This document shows, piece after piece, positions 49,880 to 58,615 of a stretch of 64,000 nucleotides of DNA. The position numbers and the translations under genes were made by a program. Each line of letters opens with the position of its first letter. The stretch's first letter is position 1. The notes below the pieces were generated by a model. That model saw only the letters and a list, made by a program, of their open reading frames with translations. It was not told the origin of the DNA and did not search any database. Origin of the DNA: Ornithinimicrobium murale (GTDB lineage: Bacteria; Actinomycetota; Actinomycetes; Actinomycetales; Dermatophilaceae); assembly GCF_003352835.1 (NCBI RefSeq), contig NZ_QLVD01000015.1:124001-188000 (forward strand). The letters run 5' to 3'.

Positions 49880-50058
49880 AACCGCAGGTGCCGGTTGAAC
49901 GCGCGGAAACGTGGCGCGGTCCGGTCAGTCCGGCCTCGCGGAGACACCTTCAGTGGGGATAGCCCTATATGCTAGCGAACGCGAGGGTCACAGCGCCAAT
50001 CCGCAGGTCAACGGCCATTTCGGTATGCCGCGGGCCGGCTGTCCCATCACGTCACCAC

Positions 50059-50228
50059 GCGCTCGGTGGGCCCCAGGAACGGGCTCCGATGCGCTCAGTG
50101 GACGCCAGGAGCGCCTCACCATGCGCTCGGTCGGCAGCAGGAGCGCCCCACCATGCGCTCGGTCGGCAGCAGGAGCGCCCCACCATGCGCTCGGTCGGCA
50201 GCAGGAGCGCCCCACCACGCGCTCGGTG
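50059..50228. repeat. Repeat array B: 32-bp tandem units sharing the array A core
   Basis: GCGCTCGGT-type units start at 50059, 50091, 50123, 50155, 50187 and 50219, exactly 32 bp apart. Inner units read GCGCTCGGTCGGCAGCAGGA then GCGCCCCACCAT. On the other strand the unit opens with ACCGAGCGCRTGG, the same 13-nt core as array A at 22545; the other 19 bases differ. The end unit can form CCCACC-loop-GGTGGG. It lies between the divergent rbpA and csbD genes. Confidence 0.9.
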
Positions 50229-50322
50229 GGGGTGACGGCTAGGGGAGGGCCTACGAGTTGCGGCCCGTGAGGCTTCGCGCGAGTGTGGGAGACCACGCAG
50301 TTCATCGACCAGGAGGTTGCGC

Positions 50323-50508
50323 ATGGGTATCGGCGACAAGATCAAGAACGCGGCCGAGGAAGCCAAGGGCAAGGGCAAGGAGGTCATGGGCGACGCGACG
50401 GACGACCACTCACTTGAGGCTGAGGGTCAGGTCGACCAGGCCAAGGCCAACACCAAGCAGGCGGGTGAGCACGCCAAGGACGCCTGGAAGGACGCCACCA
50501 GGGACTGA
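50323..50508 (+). CDS. CsbD-family stress protein
   Basis: A 61-residue, highly charged, hydrophilic helical protein (GIGDKIKNAAEEAKGKGKEVMGDATDD) of the CsbD family. Such proteins are induced by general stress and entry into stationary phase; their molecular role is unknown. ATG 50323 has a perfect AGGAGG six bases upstream; a TTG two codons earlier is unlikely. Array B lies directly upstream and a hairpin lies directly downstream. Confidence 0.9.
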   Translation: MGIGDKIKNAAEEAKGKGKEVMGDATDDHSLEAEGQVDQAKANTKQAGEHAKDAWKDATRD

Positions 50509-50531
50509 GTTCTCTCCCGCAGGAACAGACC

Positions 50532-50561
50532 AGGGCCGCACCGGTTTTACGGTGCGGCCCT
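50532..50561. terminator. Hairpin between convergent csbD and the AI-2E transporter gene
   Basis: Arms 50532-50543 (AGGGCCGCACCG) and 50550-50561 are perfectly complementary with a GTTTTA loop. It starts 24 bases after the csbD stop and can serve both strands. Confidence 0.8.
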
Positions 50562-50618
50562 GGCACGTCCTGCCTCGCTGTCCCGTCCGACACCGTGCCT
50601 GGCCTGACAGTGCCGTCC

Positions 50619-51971
50619 TCAGCGGCGCCGTCTGCGGCGGTGGAGTCTGCCGAGCAGCGGGGAACCAGCGATGCGCCGGGTTGCCGGCTCAGCGTCGGGG
50701 TCCTCACCCACGACGAACTCCTCAGCGCCCGAGCGTTCCAGTTCGTCGCGGGTGCGCTGTCCCGCCTCCACCCCGTGACGGGCAGTGATGGCTCCCTCGG
50801 GCGTGGCCAGCTTGATCTCCTCGGGGTGCAGGTCTCCGGTGCGCAGGTCGATCTGCTCGGACAGATAGCGAAGCGCCACCACCACCGAGGCGGCGACCGG
50901 CACCGCCAGGAAGGCCCCGGGAATGCCGAACAGGGTGCCTCCGGCCGCGACGGAGAGCAGGATGATCACCGGGTGCATCTTCATGCTGCGGCTCTGCAGG
51001 AGCGGTTGGAGCACGTTGCCCTCGACCTGCTGGACGAGCAGCACGATGCCGAGCACCCATAGGGCGGTGACCCACCCGTTGGACACCAGGGCCACGAGCA
51101 CCGCGAGTGCCCCGGCCACGAAGGCGCCGACGATGGGGATGAAGCCAGCCATGAAGGTCAGGATCGCCAGGGCAGGGGCTAGTGGGACCGAGAGCACGAT
51201 CAGTCCGAGACCGATGAAGAAGGCATCGACGGCACTCACGATGGCCTGGGTGCGGATGAAGCCACCGAGCGTCACCCAGACCCTGGTGAGCATCTCGGTC
51301 AGGTGCTCACCCGCCGTGCGGCCCGCGGTGCGCCGCAGCCACGGCAGGAAACTTGGTCCGTCCTTGATGAAGAAGAAGGTCAGCACCAGGACCAGGGCCA
51401 GGGTCACGAAGGCCGAGGTGACGGCAGAGACCCCGGTGAAGACGCCGGAGGCGATATCACTGGCGCGCTCCTGTAGCCAGCCGGTGGCCTCCTTGATGGC
51501 ATCGTCCAGCTGCTCATTGTCAAGGTTGATCGGAGGACCGCCCAGCCACTCCCGCACCGTGACGATGCCCTGACTGGCCCGATCCACCACGTCGCCGGTC
51601 TGCGCGACGATCGAGGGCGCGATGGCTGCGAGTGTCCCGAGGACCAGCAGCAGAGAGACGATGAGCGTCACCGCAGCGGCCAGTGCTGCGGGAACACCTC
51701 GGCGTCGCATCCAGCCCACGGGGCCGGACAACACCGTCGAGACGATGAGAGCGAGCATGACCGGGAAGATCCCGACCCACAGCTTGGACAGCAACCAGAG
51801 CAGGAGCGCGGCAGCAGCACAGATGACGATGAAGCGCAGGGACCACTTAGCGGTCACCGCCATCGCGTCCCCCACGATCTTGCCGCGGTCTATGCCGACA
51901 TTGCCCTCCGGTGGAGTCGCGCCATAACGGCCCGATGCCTCATCGGTGGTCCCGGACCCGTCATCCCTCAC
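50619..51971 (-). CDS. AI-2E family transporter (PerM/YdiK-like)
   Basis: A 450-residue membrane protein with about eight helices. Family features: paired helices at both ends, a large central soluble region (~115-190), and the glycine/proline segments TFMAGFIPIVGAFVAG and GGTLFGIPGAFLAVPVAA. Members have been linked to autoinducer-2 export or Na+/H+ antiport; the real substrate is unclear. The C-terminal ~75 residues are charged and end in a run of arginines (LHRRRRRR). GTG 51971 is the start. Confidence 0.88.
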   Translation of the reverse strand: MRDDGSGTTDEASGRYGATPPEGNVGIDRGKIVGDAMAVTAKWSLRFIVICAAAALLLWLLSKLWVGIFPVMLALIVSTVLSGPVGWMRRRGVPAALAAAVTLIVSLLLVLGTLAAIAPSIVAQTGDVVDRASQGIVTVREWLGGPPINLDNEQLDDAIKEATGWLQERASDIASGVFTGVSAVTSAFVTLALVLVLTFFFIKDGPSFLPWLRRTAGRTAGEHLTEMLTRVWVTLGGFIRTQAIVSAVDAFFIGLGLIVLSVPLAPALAILTFMAGFIPIVGAFVAGALAVLVALVSNGWVTALWVLGIVLLVQQVEGNVLQPLLQSRSMKMHPVIILLSVAAGGTLFGIPGAFLAVPVAASVVVALRYLSEQIDLRTGDLHPEEIKLATPEGAITARHGVEAGQRTRDELERSGAEEFVVGEDPDAEPATRRIAGSPLLGRLHRRRRRR

Positions 51972-52007
51972 GTGCGCCTCCCGATGGTGCGGTGCTGTCG
52001 GCAGCCA

Positions 52008-52850
52008 TCATGACGCATTCGTTGAGATCACTGTGACCATTGTGGACAGCGTGTGCTCAGCACCGGGCTCCAGGGTTACCGCGTCATCACCCACGGCGGC
52101 GGCCTCGACGCAGACCATCTCGGTCCACTCCTGGTCACCGAAGTCATCCATCGCGGCAGCCTTCTCTGCCCAGGGGTTCCAGACCACAGTGGTGGGTGAC
52201 CCGGCCTTGTCAATGGTGATCGCGCGCTGGAGCACCGGGTCGTGGACGACGACGCTGCCGGCGCTGGTGTGCACGCGATCCGTCTCGCCGGTGAAGACCA
52301 GCTCGCCGTGCTGGGTCGCCTGGGACAGCAGCACCTTGTCCCAGTAGCTGGCTCCGTCCAGGCCACTGAGCCGGATCTGTCGGATGTCCCCGACGTGCAG
52401 GTAGGTGTGCAGCGCGGCCTCGTAGTCGAAAGGGTGGGAGTCGTCGTTGCGCACGGTGAGCGAGAGCGTGGCGCTCCCCGTCACCACGACCTCGAGGTGT
52501 GCCGTGAAGCGGTGCGGAAAGTGGTCGACACCGCCCCGGGACCGGACATCCAGGTCGGTCAGCTCCCACATCAGGCGGACGGACTCGCCGTCGACGGACT
52601 CATCCCCGACCAGGCGCCACGGCGCCACCCGTGCGAACCCGTGGTTCGGCTGCAGGTCACCGGAGCGCCCCGGCCCGAACCATGGCCAGCAGACCGGGAC
52701 ACCACCCCGGATCGGCTGCCCCTCGGCATAGTCCGACTGGCGGCTCGCCCAGATCACCGGAGTGTCACCGATGCGCCACTCGGCGACCTGCGCGCCCTGG
52801 TCATAGGCGATGACCTGGCCGGAGGGTGTGCGGTAGGTGCGGGGCTCCAT
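52008..52850 (-). CDS. D-hexose-6-phosphate mutarotase (YeaD-like aldose epimerase)
   Basis: A 280-residue galactose-mutarotase-like beta-sandwich protein. Signature parts are GGVPVCWPWFGPG, NHGFARVAPWRL (general-acid histidine), and a C-terminal VCVEAAAV with the catalytic glutamate. It should interconvert alpha and beta anomers of glucose 6-phosphate or related sugars. ATG 52850 overlaps the upstream stop by one base, which makes it the last gene of the operon beginning with the Lgt-like gene at 56106. Why it is coupled to a radical SAM enzyme is not clear. Confidence 0.9.
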   Translation of the reverse strand: MEPRTYRTPSGQVIAYDQGAQVAEWRIGDTPVIWASRQSDYAEGQPIRGGVPVCWPWFGPGRSGDLQPNHGFARVAPWRLVGDESVDGESVRLMWELTDLDVRSRGGVDHFPHRFTAHLEVVVTGSATLSLTVRNDDSHPFDYEAALHTYLHVGDIRQIRLSGLDGASYWDKVLLSQATQHGELVFTGETDRVHTSAGSVVVHDPVLQRAITIDKAGSPTTVVWNPWAEKAAAMDDFGDQEWTEMVCVEAAAVGDDAVTLEPGAEHTLSTMVTVISTNAS

Positions 52851-53353
52851 CACGGTCCTGTCTGGGAGAGATTGGCAATGAGAACGATGCAGACGCCCGC
52901 GAAGACGATCAGACCCACGGGGATACTCAGGAAGACCCCGATCAGCAGGCCCAGGCCCCAGCGACGCGTCACCGGGACCACGACCAGCACGATCACCACC
53001 ACGAGCAGGCCCATCACCGCCCACGGGAACAGGTCGGACTCGAGGGCCACGCCGGCATAGACCGCGCCGCCGACCAGCAGGAGGCCGAGCACTGCTCCGA
53101 GCCACAACGGCTTGGTGGACTTCTTGGGCGGTGCCCCATAGGGCACGTGGTAGCCCTGCGGGTAGTAGTAGCCGTGCCCCGGTGGTGCCTGACCGTAGGG
53201 CGGACCCTGTGGTGCCTGACCGTAGGGCGGACCCTGTGGTGCCTGACCGTAGGGCGGACCCTGTGGTGCCTGACCGTAGGGCGGACCCTGCTGGCCCGGC
53301 GGGGGAGGCGCGTAGGGGTCGAACGGTTCGTCGGGGGACTGGTCGTCAACCAC
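52850..53353 (-). CDS. Membrane protein with Gly-Gln-Pro-Tyr repeat tail
   Basis: A 167-residue protein. The N-terminal ~75 residues are low-complexity (repeats of GQAPQGPPY from 27-bp units spaced exactly, about 53184-53291). They are followed by three membrane helices (PLWLGAVLGLLLVGGAVYAGV, WAVMGLLVVVIVLVVVPV, LLIGVFLSIPVGLIVFAGV). It looks like the many actinobacterial proteins with disordered N-termini and short membrane cores; no family is named. It overlaps both neighbours by a few bases within the operon. Confidence 0.75.
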   Translation of the reverse strand: MVDDQSPDEPFDPYAPPPPGQQGPPYGQAPQGPPYGQAPQGPPYGQAPQGPPYGQAPPGHGYYYPQGYHVPYGAPPKKSTKPLWLGAVLGLLLVGGAVYAGVALESDLFPWAVMGLLVVVIVLVVVPVTRRWGLGLLIGVFLSIPVGLIVFAGVCIVLIANLSQTGP

Positions 53354-53663
53354 GGAAGACCTCCCACCAGATGCCCACGCCTGCCGCTACGACAAGCAGC
53401 GCGAGGTAGGCCAGGACGAGTCGGGTGTCGCGCAACAGGCACTTGGAACGGGTCAGGCCGGCGCGCCGAGCGCGCCAGTAGCCTGCGAAACCGAGACCTG
53501 CGAAGACGAGCAGCGCGAACGGCCCAGCCAGCCAGCCCAGCAGCGCGACCGTCGCAAAGATGCACAGGCGCAGCGGGTCGAGGGGCGCCTCCGCAGGGGG
53601 CGGGGGAGTCGGGGGCGTCCCGGGGGTGCCGGGCAGCGCGACGGGGTGGGACGGGTCACTCAC
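53346..53663 (-). CDS. Small two-helix membrane protein in the radical SAM operon
   Basis: A 105-residue protein. The N-terminal ~30 residues are Pro-rich (VALPGTPGTPPTPPPPAEAP). They are followed by two membrane helices (LRLCIFATVALLGWLAGPF... and LVLAYLALLVVAAGVGIWW) with a basic loop between (WRARRAGLTRSKCLLRDTR). GTG 53663 overlaps the radical SAM stop (GTGA). No family is recognised; it may help hold the enzyme complex at the membrane. Confidence 0.7.
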   Translation of the reverse strand: MSDPSHPVALPGTPGTPPTPPPPAEAPLDPLRLCIFATVALLGWLAGPFALLVFAGLGFAGYWRARRAGLTRSKCLLRDTRLVLAYLALLVVAAGVGIWWEVFRG

Positions 53664-55252
53664 GTGGAGGCCTCCAGCAGGTTCCGTCGACCACCGGTGG
53701 CGGTCGAGAGCCGGGTCCGGGACAACGGCGCCCAGGCCTGCACCGCGCAGAACGGAGCGCACTGGTGCGAGGCGTCCTGCTCGTTGACCGTCGCGACGTG
53801 CACGCAGCACTGGGTGAGCCGCTCCTCGATCATCGTGTTGATGTCCATGAACGGCTTGACGGTCACCCGAAGCACCCGCTCACCGAGCATCGCGCGCAGG
53901 CGGGCCTGGCCACCGGGCAGCTGAGCGGTGGCCAGGCGGCTGAGCGTCCCGATCCCGATGTCACAGTTGGTGCAGATGTCCCGCCAGATCGAGCCGATGT
54001 TGGGATGCGACAGCGAGGACTGCTCGCTGAGCAGGTCCAGCAGACTGTCCTTGACCACCCGGCGCAGCTGCGCGGGCAGCTCCTGGTCGGCGATCCGGTT
54101 GGCCAGGACGTCGGGTTCCAGGTCGAGGAACTCCTTGAGCCGGTCCGGCCCGATCAGCTGGACCAGCGATTGCCATGTGCCGGAGTCGTCGCGCAGCAGG
54201 TAGCCCACCGAGCAACAGTGCGGGTGTGAGCACGGCAGGGCGGTCAGGTCACGCCAGGTGACGCGGCCATCGGTCTGGCCCGCGAGACGGCTCAGCACGC
54301 CGGTGTGGGTGAGGCGCTCCATCGGGTCGACCCCGGCCGAGCGTCCGGAACCGAAGACCGGCTGGATGGTGACGCCTCCGACGTAGGGCGTGGCCAGCCC
54401 CAGATCAAGCACGGCGCCGATCTCCTCATCGTTGACGCCGAGCGCTGCGGTCATGGTCAGCGTGGTGAAGATGCCGTTCTCGGAGAGCCGGGCGATCGCC
54501 TGCTCCTTAAACCGTCGCAGGTCCGCGCCACGGTGGTGCCGTGAGGCGTCGGCGGTCAGCCCGTCGAACTGCAGGTAGATCTCGACCCGCTCCCGGTGCT
54601 TGCGCAGCAGGGCCAGCAGCGCGTCGTCCCGGGCGATCCGCAACCCGTTGCTGTTGACCAGGATCCGCACGATGGGGCGGGCCACCGCGGCCTCGAGGAG
54701 CTCCTCGAACTGCGGGTGCAAGGTCGGCTCGCCACCGGAGATCATGAGCACATCGAGGCGGTTGTTCTCCCGGGAGAGCCGGGTGTCGATGGAGGCGAGG
54801 ATCTGCTCCAGCGGTGCGGTCGCCGCGAGCTGGGGGGCCGACTCGGCGAAGCACGTCGGGCACTTCAGGTTGCAGTGGTCGGTGATGTCCTCGAGGAGGA
54901 TGCAGGTGTGCTGGGTCTGCATCTGGGGCAGGCCATCGGCGTATGCGGAGGGGACCGGTTTGAAGTTGCCCGCCAGGTCGGCGGTGTGTTCCTTGGTGGG
55001 GGCGGTCCACTCCTCGAGGTAGCGCAGGATCTGGGCGGACTCGTCGTAGAGCGTGCGCACGAACCCGTGGTCCGGACAGCCGCGCTCCAGGTAGACCGCG
55101 CCGTTGCGTTCGGCGAGCCAGCCGGACAGGCGACGGACGTGCTCCAGCGGCCGGTCCGGGTCCTCCTCGTGGCAGTGCGGGCAGAAGGCGTTGACATAGC
55201 GGTGCACCCGGAAGTCGCGCAGCGCGGCGCCCGGGCCGACCGGCGCGCCCAT
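53660..55252 (-). CDS. Multi-cluster radical SAM enzyme, MJ0619/tetraether-synthase-like
   Basis: A 530-residue enzyme. The radical SAM motif is CNLKCPTC (Cys127, Cys131, Cys134), followed by the SGGEPTLHP loop. Extra cysteines, CPHC at 24-27, Cys59, CSHPHCC, CTNC, and a C-terminal cluster (QCC, and QCAPFC), are enough for further [4Fe-4S] clusters, as in the archaeal MJ0619 family. That family includes the tetraether lipid synthase Tes. ATG 55252 overlaps the Lgt-like stop by one base. Lipid C-C coupling or another lipid change is the favoured guess because of the Lgt-like partner; a pterin methylase, once proposed for MJ0619, is the alternative. Confidence 0.75.
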   Translation of the reverse strand: MGAPVGPGAALRDFRVHRYVNAFCPHCHEEDPDRPLEHVRRLSGWLAERNGAVYLERGCPDHGFVRTLYDESAQILRYLEEWTAPTKEHTADLAGNFKPVPSAYADGLPQMQTQHTCILLEDITDHCNLKCPTCFAESAPQLAATAPLEQILASIDTRLSRENNRLDVLMISGGEPTLHPQFEELLEAAVARPIVRILVNSNGLRIARDDALLALLRKHRERVEIYLQFDGLTADASRHHRGADLRRFKEQAIARLSENGIFTTLTMTAALGVNDEEIGAVLDLGLATPYVGGVTIQPVFGSGRSAGVDPMERLTHTGVLSRLAGQTDGRVTWRDLTALPCSHPHCCSVGYLLRDDSGTWQSLVQLIGPDRLKEFLDLEPDVLANRIADQELPAQLRRVVKDSLLDLLSEQSSLSHPNIGSIWRDICTNCDIGIGTLSRLATAQLPGGQARLRAMLGERVLRVTVKPFMDINTMIEERLTQCCVHVATVNEQDASHQCAPFCAVQAWAPLSRTRLSTATGGRRNLLEAST

Positions 55253-56106
55253 CAGTCGGACCTCTCCGACGTGCCGGCGCCCACCTGCAGGCCTGCTCCG
55301 CCCGGTCGCTGCTGAGTCACGTTGTCCGTCTCCTGTCGTGAGTACACCCCGCGCCGAGCCTGCCACGCGATCCGGGCCAGCACGAGGGGAACCGCCGCGA
55401 GGAGGAACAGCTGGGGCCTGCTCAGTCCCATCCAGACCACCTCGTTGCCCCTCGTGAACTCCACGAGCAGCCGGAACACGGCATACGAGGCGATGTAGAG
55501 GACGAAGGTCTCCCCCTGGGGGAGCCGGCGCCGCGACAGGCTCCACCAGATGACCGCGAAGGCCACGGTGTGGAAGGCCGCCTCGTAGAGCAGGCTGGGA
55601 TGCAGCGGGACGCCGGCCACGCCACCGAGCCGGTCGGCAGTCGCCTGGTCCAGGACCGGACCGAAGCCCAGCGGGTTGGGCGTGCCGGGCAGCTCGGTGA
55701 GGTGACAGCCCCACCGGCCCACCGCCATGCCGAGGGCGACCGCGGGGGCGAAGAGATCACCGGTGCGTGCCGGGTAGCCGGTGAGGCGCTTGGCGACATG
55801 GACCCCGAGCCAGGCTCCCACCAGACCGCCCAGGATGCTGCGGTTTCCGTAGAGCCACTGCTCGACCAGGGAGGCGTTGGCCCGCAGGTCGACGTCCTGC
55901 AGCCAGGTGCCCAGCCGCATGAACACCGCCCCGCCCACGAGGGCACCGGCGATGATGTAGAGCATCCGTTCGTCGCGACCCGCCCGGGTCTGCACGAGAC
56001 GGATGCCCACCACCAGCAGACCCACGGCCACACCGAGACCGACGAAGAGCTCATGGGTGCCCACCGGGAGGTCGATCCCCAGCAGGTCGCCGAGCGTGGG
56101 ATACAT
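55252..56106 (-). CDS. Prolipoprotein diacylglyceryl transferase-like membrane protein
   Basis: A 284-residue seven-helix membrane protein related to Lgt. The Lgt signature arginine is kept in GRWGCHLTELPG, but the following Asn of canonical Lgt (GRxxNFxNxE) is His. The HGG segment of true Lgt is replaced by ILGGLVG. It therefore looks like a paralogue with altered substrate rather than the main Lgt. ATG 56106 lies seven bases after a minus-strand TAGGTT. It heads the overlapping operon with the radical SAM enzyme, which argues that both act on the same lipid. Confidence 0.8.
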   Translation of the reverse strand: MYPTLGDLLGIDLPVGTHELFVGLGVAVGLLVVGIRLVQTRAGRDERMLYIIAGALVGGAVFMRLGTWLQDVDLRANASLVEQWLYGNRSILGGLVGAWLGVHVAKRLTGYPARTGDLFAPAVALGMAVGRWGCHLTELPGTPNPLGFGPVLDQATADRLGGVAGVPLHPSLLYEAAFHTVAFAVIWWSLSRRRLPQGETFVLYIASYAVFRLLVEFTRGNEVVWMGLSRPQLFLLAAVPLVLARIAWQARRGVYSRQETDNVTQQRPGGAGLQVGAGTSERSD

Positions 56107-56113
56107 GAGCGCC

Positions 56114-56119
56114 AACCTA
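56114..56119 (-). promoter_or_regulatory. -10-like element (TAGGTT) of the Lgt-like/radical SAM operon
   Basis: TAGGTT on the minus strand ends seven bases before ATG 56106, with no Shine-Dalgarno sequence. It is the likely promoter for the five-gene operon. Confidence 0.5.
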
Positions 56120-56206
56120 GCGTCTCGCCCGGTGTGCCGGTCCCGTTGCGGGATCGGCCGACAGGTAGGCTGCGGCAGGAGTGGGGCACGACGTCGAGGG
56201 GACACC

Positions 56207-56920
56207 GTGAACGAGCAGACCGGACCGCAGCCGGGCCAGGGCCATCCGTGGGCGCCGCAGGGACAGCCCGGTGACCAGCAGGTAGGACCACAGGCAGGCC
56301 CGCCGGGCGCACCGGACCAGCTAGAACCGCAGGCTCGTCCCCAACCGGGCCACCCGCCGGGCGGCCAGCCGTCACACGGTGGCCAGACACCGTTGGGCGA
56401 TCAGCAGAGCGGGTCAGCACCGGGCGTGCCACCGCATCCGGGCTATGGGCAGCCGGCCGGGCCGGGTCACCAGAGCCAGCAGTTCGGTCACGGACCGGCC
56501 GGGCCGGGTCACCAGAGCCAGCAGTTCGGTCCCGGATCGACCGCACCGCCCGTCTCGGGGAGCAGTGGCATGTCCACCGGCGAGGTCGTCCGGCTTGTGC
56601 TGCACGTCCTCGCTCTGCTGTTGGTGGCCCTGGGCCTGTCGGCCGATCTGGATGACCGTGACTCCGTGCTGTGGAGCGACACCTGGACCTGGGCCGGCTT
56701 TGCGACACTGATGGCCCTGGCGCAGGGTGCCGCGCTGCTGCCCCGGACCGTGCTCTCCGGTGCCGGCTGGACGACCGGTGCTGTCGGCGCGGGCGGACTG
56801 CTGCTCTTCTGGACCCTGCTCATGCTGCCGTTGATCAGCACCAACATGGCCTTCCTGGTGACCCTCGGCACGGCGTGCGCGACAGCCGCGGTCCTACTCA
56901 GTCCCGACCGGAAGCTCTGA
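56207..56920 (+). CDS. Membrane protein with Gln/Pro/Gly-rich N-terminus
   Basis: A 237-residue protein. Residues 1-120 are low-complexity (Gln, Pro, Gly), with a 42-bp duplication (about 56453-56494 and 56495-56531) giving PAGPGHQSQQFGHG twice. Four membrane helices follow (VVRLVLHVLALLLVALGL, WTWAGFATLMALAQGAAL, GAVGAGGLLLFWTLLMLPL, MAFLVTLGTACATAAVLL). No known family. GTG 56207 has GAGGGG upstream. It is divergent from the Lgt-like operon, and the next gene follows after four bases. Confidence 0.7.
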   Translation: MNEQTGPQPGQGHPWAPQGQPGDQQVGPQAGPPGAPDQLEPQARPQPGHPPGGQPSHGGQTPLGDQQSGSAPGVPPHPGYGQPAGPGHQSQQFGHGPAGPGHQSQQFGPGSTAPPVSGSSGMSTGEVVRLVLHVLALLLVALGLSADLDDRDSVLWSDTWTWAGFATLMALAQGAALLPRTVLSGAGWTTGAVGAGGLLLFWTLLMLPLISTNMAFLVTLGTACATAAVLLSPDRKL

Positions 56921-56924
56921 CCCC

Positions 56925-57389
56925 GTGCTCGGCACGACCCGTGGACCCGTGGTCACTCTGACCCGGCACCGGGTCGCAGTCCTGGCCGCCGGTCTGCTGA
57001 CCGTCCTGGCCCTGGGGCTCCCGTGGACGGCGTCGACCGAAGTCACCACCGGAGGGTGGTATGTGGCCTCCACGTGCATCCCGAACTTCAATGACGGCAC
57101 CATCTGGTGCTCCGGCTCCTATGCCTCACCGGGGTTCACCACCGGATCCGCCGGGCTGAGCGGCAACGAGACGGTGGCCCGGGTCTTCCTCGTCGGGGCG
57201 CTCGTCCTGATCACCATCGCCTCGGTCCGGCAGAAGCCCCGACTGTTGCTGGTGGCCGGAGCCGCCCTGGTCCTGGGCATCCTGTTGACCGGACTCACCC
57301 TGCTGGGTGGCCAGGTCGCTGCGGTCCTGGCCGCTGCGCTGGTGCTGTATGCCTCCTTCAGCGCCGGGGTCGCACCAGCCAGAGCGTGA
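56925..57389 (+). CDS. Membrane protein of unknown function with a Cys-pair outer loop
   Basis: A 154-residue protein with four membrane helices. The first (RVAVLAAGLLTVLALGLPW) is followed by an outer loop of ~50 residues with two cysteines (STCIPNFNDGTIWCSG) that could form a disulfide. Three closely packed helices follow. No family is recognised. It is co-oriented with and very close to the previous gene, and its 3' end overlaps a small convergent gene by 32 bp. Confidence 0.7.
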   Translation: MLGTTRGPVVTLTRHRVAVLAAGLLTVLALGLPWTASTEVTTGGWYVASTCIPNFNDGTIWCSGSYASPGFTTGSAGLSGNETVARVFLVGALVLITIASVRQKPRLLLVAGAALVLGILLTGLTLLGGQVAAVLAAALVLYASFSAGVAPARA

Positions 57390-57525
57390 GGACGACACCG
57401 GCGATCAGGCCCAGCCCGAAGGCTGGCACCAGATAGTTCATCCGCCACCAGATCAGCTGCAGGCCCCACCAGGCCAGCAGCAGGACGATGGCGCCGATCA
57501 CGAGCGTCCACCCCCAGCGGCCCAT
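57358..57525 (-). CDS. Small two-helix membrane protein (55 residues)
   Basis: A 55-residue open frame from ATG 57525 to TGA at 57358, reading MGRWGWTLVIGAIVLLLAWW then a Trp-rich turn (LIWWRMNYLVP), a second helix AFGLGLIAGVVLTLWLV and the basic end RPRR. The start/helix/positive-end pattern and an AAGGGG upstream of ATG make it look real. It is too short for many gene finders. It overlaps the end of the convergent membrane protein gene by 32 bp. Confidence 0.6.
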   Translation of the reverse strand: MGRWGWTLVIGAIVLLLAWWGLQLIWWRMNYLVPAFGLGLIAGVVLTLWLVRPRR

Positions 57526-57622
57526 CAGCCAGGCCCCTTCTGTGGTGCACCGTCAGGCGTCCGTCGCCACGGAGGGGCAGAGGGAGCGGCGAGGGTCGGC
57601 ATGCCGCCGATCCTGCCACGAA

Positions 57623-58615
57623 CTATCCGGGCAACGGCGACACGGCAGTTGCCGTCGGGACGTAGACGATGGCGTTGATCGACTCACCCACCGGTCCGTT
57701 CTCAACGACCGCGTCCGCGTCACGTGCGGGGTCATAGCTCGGTCCGATCGCCCTGGTCCGCAACGGCCTGCGGAGCCATGACCGCACGATGGCGCTCTGC
57801 GCGGCGTCGCTCTCGAGTGCGAGCAGGACCGGCACGTCGCTGTACCGGAGCACTGCTTCGGTGAGGTCCGGCGGCGTGGGAGGAACGAAGAAGGGTACAG
57901 AGCCGGTCCCCATGGTGAGCACAGCTGCCGCATAGTCGGTGCCCAACGCCGCGCGTAGGTGGCCACCGGCGTTGCGATGAGTCTGCTCGGGCATTGCTGG
58001 GAGGTGTCGTTCGTCCGCTGCGACGGTGTGTGCGGTGCCTCCCCAGTGAGCGATGCGCTGCCCGGTGCGGTGCTGCCAGTCGAGGTTGCGGCGCGCAAGG
58101 TCGAGCTCGATCTCCGCGAGGTCATCTGGATCGGCGCCGACAGGCGCTCGGTCATGGACGATGCGGACGGGGTCGTCTGGGTGTGTGACGGCGTAGTGGC
58201 GCAGCCACCGGAAGACCGCCTCCGCCTCGTGGTTGTGGAGGAATCCCTGGCTGGCGTGCAGGAGGGTGCGCAGGTCCCCTTCTCCGCTCACCGTCCACCG
58301 ATCGAGGTCCGCCGCCGTGTTGAACGGTGCGTCGGTTCCCTCGATCGAGACGGCGCGCACACCTGGCGCACCTCCGTCGGTGTCTTGCACCAGAGCCCGC
58401 AGGAGCGCGTGGGTCGCCAACACCAGCTCCCGTGCCGATCGCACCGCCGACGCCAACCCCACCACCGTTGCTTCGCTGAGCACACGCGGAGGTGGCTGCG
58501 TCGCGTCATCGACGGGGAAGGCGACCGCGTGCTGTGCCACCCATGCGGCCAGGGAGGCATCGACATCAGCCGCTGGGCTCCGATCGTCTGCGGACTCGTG
58601 AGCCATTCCGGTCAT
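57623..58615 (-). CDS. Erythromycin-esterase-family protein with degenerate active site
   Basis: A ~330-residue protein with the scaffold of the erythromycin esterase/succinoglycan-biosynthesis family: a helical N-terminal part, the EAVFRWLRHYAVTHP segment (as in RxxLxWLRxYN), and the RRNLDWQHRTGQRIAHWGGTAH region matching NxxWL...RIxxWAHNxH. The N-terminal catalytic motif GExTHG is replaced by GLASAVRSARE, so the key Glu and His are missing. It is therefore unlikely to open macrolide lactones. The start is uncertain (ATG 58615 or 58606). Tandem 16-bp repeats lie just upstream. Confidence 0.7.
   Translation of the reverse strand: MTGMAHESADDRSPAADVDASLAAWVAQHAVAFPVDDATQPPPRVLSEATVVGLASAVRSARELVLATHALLRALVQDTDGGAPGVRAVSIEGTDAPFNTAADLDRWTVSGEGDLRTLLHASQGFLHNHEAEAVFRWLRHYAVTHPDDPVRIVHDRAPVGADPDDLAEIELDLARRNLDWQHRTGQRIAHWGGTAHTVAADERHLPAMPEQTHRNAGGHLRAALGTDYAAAVLTMGTGSVPFFVPPTPPDLTEAVLRYSDVPVLLALESDAAQSAIVRSWLRRPLRTRAIGPSYDPARDADAVVENGPVGESINAIVYVPTATAVSPLPG

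Follow-up and report, generated by a model that had tools for sequence, protein, structure and literature searches.

The 64,000-nucleotide stretch of Ornithinimicrobium murale DNA analysed here (contig NZ_QLVD01000015.1, positions 124,001 to 188,000; hereafter the window) carries four overlapping minus-strand genes that form a conserved unit, recurring in numerous actinobacteria and in a small number of bacteria outside that group: they encode an Lgt-like integral membrane protein, a radical SAM enzyme of the Tes/TrsS superfamily, a small two-helix membrane protein and a Pro/Gln-rich membrane protein. Judged from their sequences and from structure models, these genes may well specify a membrane-bound lipid-modifying system, a reading to which we assign a probability of about 0.5. 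An earlier note on this DNA had singled out the Lgt-like and radical SAM genes; its observation stands and was even understated, the pair being part of a conserved four-gene unit.

The case for a unit rests first on linkage. A scan for relatives, taking one genome per species, found 139, of which the best 80 (L011-L090) were kept for locus counts; the closest named locus among these 80 is that of O. cavernae (radical SAM protein 95% identity). The Lgt-like gene lies beside the radical SAM gene in 79/80 loci, the exception (L065) stopping at a contig end, and wherever a locus has at least two cassette genes (79 loci), these are co-oriented. Their order varies: radical SAM, two-helix, Lgt-like, membrane gene in 39 loci; Lgt-like, membrane, radical SAM in 12; the same followed by the two-helix gene in 8; the order of the window (Lgt-like, radical SAM, two-helix, membrane) in 7; and others in 14, including the single-gene L065. 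That linkage is retained despite reordering argues for a joint function. When open frames within 6 kb were clustered, the largest cluster beyond the cassette frames and their antisense frames covered 11/80 loci. Cassette-bearing strains with names belong to Microbacterium, Knoellia, Ornithinimicrobium, Agromyces and Nocardioides.

Co-occurrence, which the earlier note had proposed to examine, points the same way. A set of 396 genomes from the phylum gave radical SAM matches at E<=1e-30 in 22. In ten of the 22 the match is of the window type, with 53-100% identity across the aligned segments, and the Lgt-like protein (E<=1e-50) is present in exactly those ten and no others. Likewise, 6 of 24 genomes of the genus have the radical SAM gene; a divergent Lgt (LGT score 84-99 bits) adjoins it in the same six and in none of the other 18. 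Outside the phylum, the window-type enzyme occurs in 6/301 genomes of a Chloroflexota set and 2/200 of a Gemmatimonadota set, with a cassette-type Lgt adjoining it in 7 of these 8. The genomes in all these counts are related and hence do not represent independent events. Selection on the cassette genes is purifying: over five pairs of relatives the ratio of nonsynonymous to synonymous substitution rates (dN/dS) is 0.03-0.17 for the radical SAM gene, 0.09-0.26 for the lgt-like gene and 0.13-0.62 for the membrane gene, and over four pairs 0.08-0.27 for the two-helix gene.

The Lgt-like protein (55252..56106, minus strand, 284 amino acids) has the Pfam LGT domain (98.5 bits) and the Lgt fold. It misses the cut-off of TIGR00544 (68.5 against 118.9 bits), and a separate, higher-scoring Lgt is encoded in the same genome. 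It had been described as lacking the canonical catalytic residues, and for three of them this is so: compared with Lgt (phosphatidylglycerol:prolipoprotein diacylglyceryl transferase; PDB 5AZB), C134 takes the place of Asn146 (Cys in 96/96 cassette rows), H18 that of Tyr26 (His in 94/94), and a Leu that of the HGG histidine, H103, where His is found in none of the cassette rows. Asn146 is kept in 30/30 higher-scoring Lgts of the relatives, and in these as well H103 is His in just 9/30. The description fails for the arginines of the phosphatidylglycerol site, which are kept: R131 corresponds to E. coli R143 and R212 to R239, with the former conserved in 107/107 paired rows and the latter in 106/107 (one gap), counting four places represented twice (L087/L145, L078/L190, L152/L175, L159/L184) and possibly further genome repeats. 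Both arginines are reported to be essential in E. coli Lgt (PMC4728403). We considered and rejected a dead paralogue, on the grounds of these conserved phospholipid-site arginines and purifying selection.

The radical SAM enzyme (53660..55252, minus strand, 530 amino acids; Pfam Radical_SAM 73 bits, HMPTM zinc ribbon 43.5 bits) is homologous over most of its length to MJ0619/Tes, the family that had been named as nearest, and its model is predicted to follow the fold of GDGT-MAS (Tes; MJ0619; PDB 7TOL, 7TOM) along the chain. Its many extra cysteines are real: 16 are kept in at least 96% of 81 alignment rows (the 80 loci and the window). The rubredoxin-like C24, C27, C59 and H62 and the radical SAM (RS) cluster C127, C131 and C134 are invariant; the other conserved cysteines are C117, C341, C346, C347, C427, C430, C482, C483, C498 and C502. 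The enzyme thus has both motifs listed for Tes (PMC9433317), the rubredoxin CX2C...CX2H and the RS CX3CX2C. The cysteine pattern departs from that of Tes elsewhere: the ligands of the N-terminal auxiliary cluster, C73, C77 and C80 (GCPxDCGLCPxH region), are absent, the window reading SAYADGLPQMQTQH there, and this region's motif is present in distant Lgt-linked relatives. C438/Met439 and Tyr459 of Tes are replaced by V465/K466 and V486, the window enzyme has C117, C341, C347, C427, C430 and C498 in addition, and its partner genes differ. Met439 and Tyr459 are reported to be completely conserved across 1000 archaeal homologues (PMC9433317). The GDGT-MAS variants Y459F, Y459L and M439A are reported to be still active in vitro. 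With 154.7 bits against the 450-bit cut-off of the Tes model NF045702 and with these hallmarks missing, Tes orthology was rejected; by score and residue tests the window enzyme is not a Tes orthologue.

These comparisons bear on the idea that the enzyme is a true bacterial tetraether synthase making ether lipids like branched glycerol dialkyl glycerol tetraethers (GDGTs) in these actinobacteria. Fold and superfamily are shared, and bacterial Tes homologues have been proposed for branched GDGTs (PMC8941075). The missing hallmarks speak against it, and so does a tree of 44 rows, which places the cassette rows on a long branch of their own, separated from MJ0619 with 100/100 support (midpoint root, with a long-branch warning). 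The same tree needs three changes of Lgt label, and one label, 'none' for L148, is wrong: it came from a short first stretch, and the longer stretch L205 shows an Lgt. A further point concerns the DUF2229 domain, which we take to mark the anaerobic Ger/PlsA ether route: it was found in 0/10 cassette genomes (one 75% complete; the search did not extend to the ElbD and AGPS routes). A tetraether product made through the Ger/PlsA route is unlikely on this basis, and that type of ether route was rejected on its marker. Altogether we regard a tetraether synthase as very unlikely.

The two small proteins have no Pfam family above cut-off. The two-helix protein (53346..53663, minus strand, 105 amino acids) has two hydrophobic regions and the motif DPLRLC ... 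RSKCLLxDTRxVLxYL; a profile search finds its gene in 66/80 loci and the window, with both cysteine motifs in 67/67 rows, and it is absent from 14/80, ten of them mycobacterial, the others being L064, L065 (contig end), L068 and L088. The Pro/Gln-rich protein (52850..53353, minus strand, 167 amino acids) has, from its hydropathy, three hydrophobic segments after its Pro/Gln-rich N-terminus, and a G-x-C near its C-terminus. An iterated profile finds relatives of its gene in 71/80 loci and the window; in 65/72 rows a Gly stands two positions before the last cysteine scored. Of the nine loci without a profile match, the stretch ends soon after in four (L013, L024, L055, L065) and does not in five (L014, L061, L078, L087, L089); by eye, the Lgt and radical SAM genes of L078 and L087 are separated by a short membrane frame that ends in G-x-C. 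In L183 (6333-7913), the same two genes flank a membrane protein in three tandem copies, whose N-terminal region is similar and whose end reads G-I-C. In the window, a 27-base tandem repeat (53178-53290; 4.2 copies, 98% matches) encodes GPPYGQAPQ repeats in the N-terminus of the membrane protein.

How might these proteins work together? The recurrent pairing of an enzyme of Tes fold with a transferase that handles phospholipids is most simply read as action on lipids. The Lgt homologue would bind phosphatidylglycerol, or its diacylglycerol part, through the conserved arginine pair; its acceptor side, changed at three positions (Asn146 to Cys, Tyr26 to His and the HGG histidine to Leu), suggests that the diacylglyceryl unit would be delivered or transferred to an acceptor different from the usual lipobox cysteine. 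The Tes-like enzyme would abstract a hydrogen from a lipid tail inside a putative hydrophobic pocket, with a bond formed where an auxiliary cluster lies near the tail end, and the two small membrane proteins may be partners that keep the enzyme membrane-bound or serve, through their conserved cysteines, as lipid carriers. Membrane-spanning lipid synthase (Mss), a radical enzyme, may be a functional counterpart. It is reported to couple two fatty acids in bacteria (PMC11868695). Coupling of two tails would be the closest precedent, and other tail modifications may occur; since the precedent enzyme holds one tail from each of two lipids and bonds their ends, tail coupling is the leading candidate chemistry, the altered cofactor set allowing others. 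A more specific version, in which the altered Lgt moves diacylglyceryl to a membrane-embedded cysteine, either C134 of the altered Lgt itself or that of the G-x-C helix end in the three-helix protein, after which lipid tails are joined by the Tes-like enzyme into a protein-anchored or membrane-spanning lipid, is speculative and we consider it quite unlikely.

The same small proteins suit another explanation, namely that the radical SAM enzyme, the Lgt homologue or both modify the conserved cysteines of the two-helix protein or the G-x-C close to where the last helix of the three-helix protein ends, yielding a lipidated or thioether-bearing protein. The conserved cysteines of both would equally suit such a system and give this view its substance. 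The chain-long similarity of the enzyme to a lipid enzyme, far above that to peptide maturases, speaks against this explanation, as does the lack of a SPASM domain in Pfam at E up to 0.1. In addition, the ten mycobacterial loci are without the two-helix protein and some others without one small protein by profile, so that neither alone seems obligatory. We hold modification of a protein to be possible but rather unlikely.

Other observations also weigh against a lipid-modifying system. The structure model of the radical SAM enzyme is only moderate (predicted local distance difference test, pLDDT, 69.8), and the N-terminal auxiliary cysteines, Met439 and Tyr459, hallmarks of Tes, are missing. 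In one Chloroflexota genome in many contigs (G723), the window-type enzyme has no Lgt in the 7.5 kb upstream, its contig ending about 1 kb downstream, and a search of the genome yielded no cassette-type Lgt. No Lgt is present in 14/20 stretches around distant relatives (ten 12.5-17.3 kb long, four on contigs of <6 kb) or in five of eight further stretches (L206, L208-L211). A methyltransferase stands instead of Lgt beside the distant TrsS-like relatives L168 and L180, and a Tes/TrsS-like radical SAM gene is found with a methyltransferase on a Halorarius plasmid (L189:4965-7128) and a Mycolicibacterium vanbaalenii plasmid (L188:5902-8270). Finally, the best-scoring NCBIfam model is TrsS (NF045646; 202.8 bits over residues 39-504), a radical SAM (seleno)protein for which no stated function was found in the sources searched.

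The last points raise the prospect of a TrsS-like enzyme of another pathway, perhaps in methylation or in metalloid chemistry, with the Lgt homologue as anchor or chaperone. L168 and L180 have the QH-x-C and C341/C346 positions in common with the window enzyme, they and the two plasmid copies adjoin methyltransferases, and in L174 and L177 an Lgt homologue is accompanied by an ArsP_1 permease (L174:9175-10071, L177:7182-8081), the latter lying directly after the Lgt-linked radical SAM gene. The 490-bit cut-off of TrsS is missed, however, and TrsS orthology was rejected on scores and residues. Methyltransferase adjacency is a feature of L168 and L180, which likewise score below the TrsS cut-off, and is not known as a formal definition of TrsS; no general methyltransferase neighbour occurs within 6 kb in the 80 cassette loci, where the limit of 11/80 for any non-cassette neighbour cluster argues against methyltransferase or permease as a general partner. 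Moreover, purifying selection and retention of the phospholipid-site arginines in the Lgt partner go beyond what a plain anchor would require. A pathway of this kind appears unlikely to us. A lipid system remains likely on sequences and models: of the lipid coupling or remodelling pathway first suggested, the conserved Lgt link and kept arginines hold, and the pairing recurs in some distant relatives of other phyla, whereas the identity with Tes does not.

This recurrence is seen in the Chloroflexota-set distant relatives L174-L177, L184, L156 and L160, which have the N-terminal cluster motif and a neighbouring Lgt homologue, three of them (L174, L176, L177) with a relative of the Pro/Gln-rich membrane protein as well. 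An Lgt homologue also lies beside the Gemmatimonadota-set relative L192/L207 and on a Persicobacter plasmid (L187:5232-7386), where it overlaps a Tes-like radical SAM gene. About 2 kb downstream of the latter is a large frame (L187:9545-13102) that, by eye, we take to be polyketide-synthase-like or polyunsaturated-fatty-acid-synthase-like. Plasmids of Mycobacterium avium (NZ_CP076860.1, 344 kb) and M. branderi (NZ_AP022607.1, 864 kb) carry the run Lgt, membrane protein, radical SAM, annotated only as 'prolipoprotein diacylglyceryl transferase family protein', hypothetical proteins and 'radical SAM protein'. Such plasmid copies, together with patchiness within the genus, suggest that the cassette spread by horizontal transfer. 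A viral or phage home was rejected: an IMG/VR scan gave 65 pattern matches, none of them a relative.

In the window, five minus-strand genes overlap end to end, in the order Lgt-like, radical SAM, two-helix, Pro/Gln-rich membrane and mutarotase. The Lgt-like and radical SAM genes have a single base in common, at 55252, as first described; the two-helix gene overlaps the radical SAM gene by 4 bases and the membrane gene overlaps the two-helix gene by 8. The fifth gene encodes an aldose-1-epimerase-like mutarotase (52008..52850, minus strand; Pfam Aldose_epim 139 bits, 2.5e-40) and does follow with a 1-base overlap, but is not part of the unit: a mutarotase was found in only 1/80 loci (L011), its overlap was judged incidental, and the unit is therefore the first four genes. 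No RNA element reaches the Rfam gathering score within 50000-58000, which includes a 32-base tandem unit at 50053-50227 (5.5 copies, 85% matches) where no clear gene is seen.

A literature search, made partly by titles and abstract starts, found no account of the pairing of an Lgt homologue with a Tes-like radical SAM enzyme; by title and abstract start, the nearest text joining Lgt, radical SAM and Actinobacteria concerns EVE domains. The roles of bacterial tetraether-synthase homologues are described as not assessed, and the major producers of branched tetraethers as poorly identified (PMC11868695, PMC8941075). Our comparisons suggest that bacterial 'Tes homologues' include Lgt-linked and methyltransferase-linked kinds, so that claims of tetraether production based on genomes should be tempered. 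GDGTs are reported to be absent from haloarchaea that have Tes homologues (PMC8941075), and the methyltransferase-linked haloarchaeal copy may offer an explanation. The cassette provides many bacterial Tes homologues with constant partners and with a lipid hypothesis open to experiment, and it points to a bacterial membrane-lipid modification not yet described. Should lipid coupling be demonstrated, tail-coupling chemistry would be present in common actinobacteria and an Lgt homologue would have a role outside lipoproteins.

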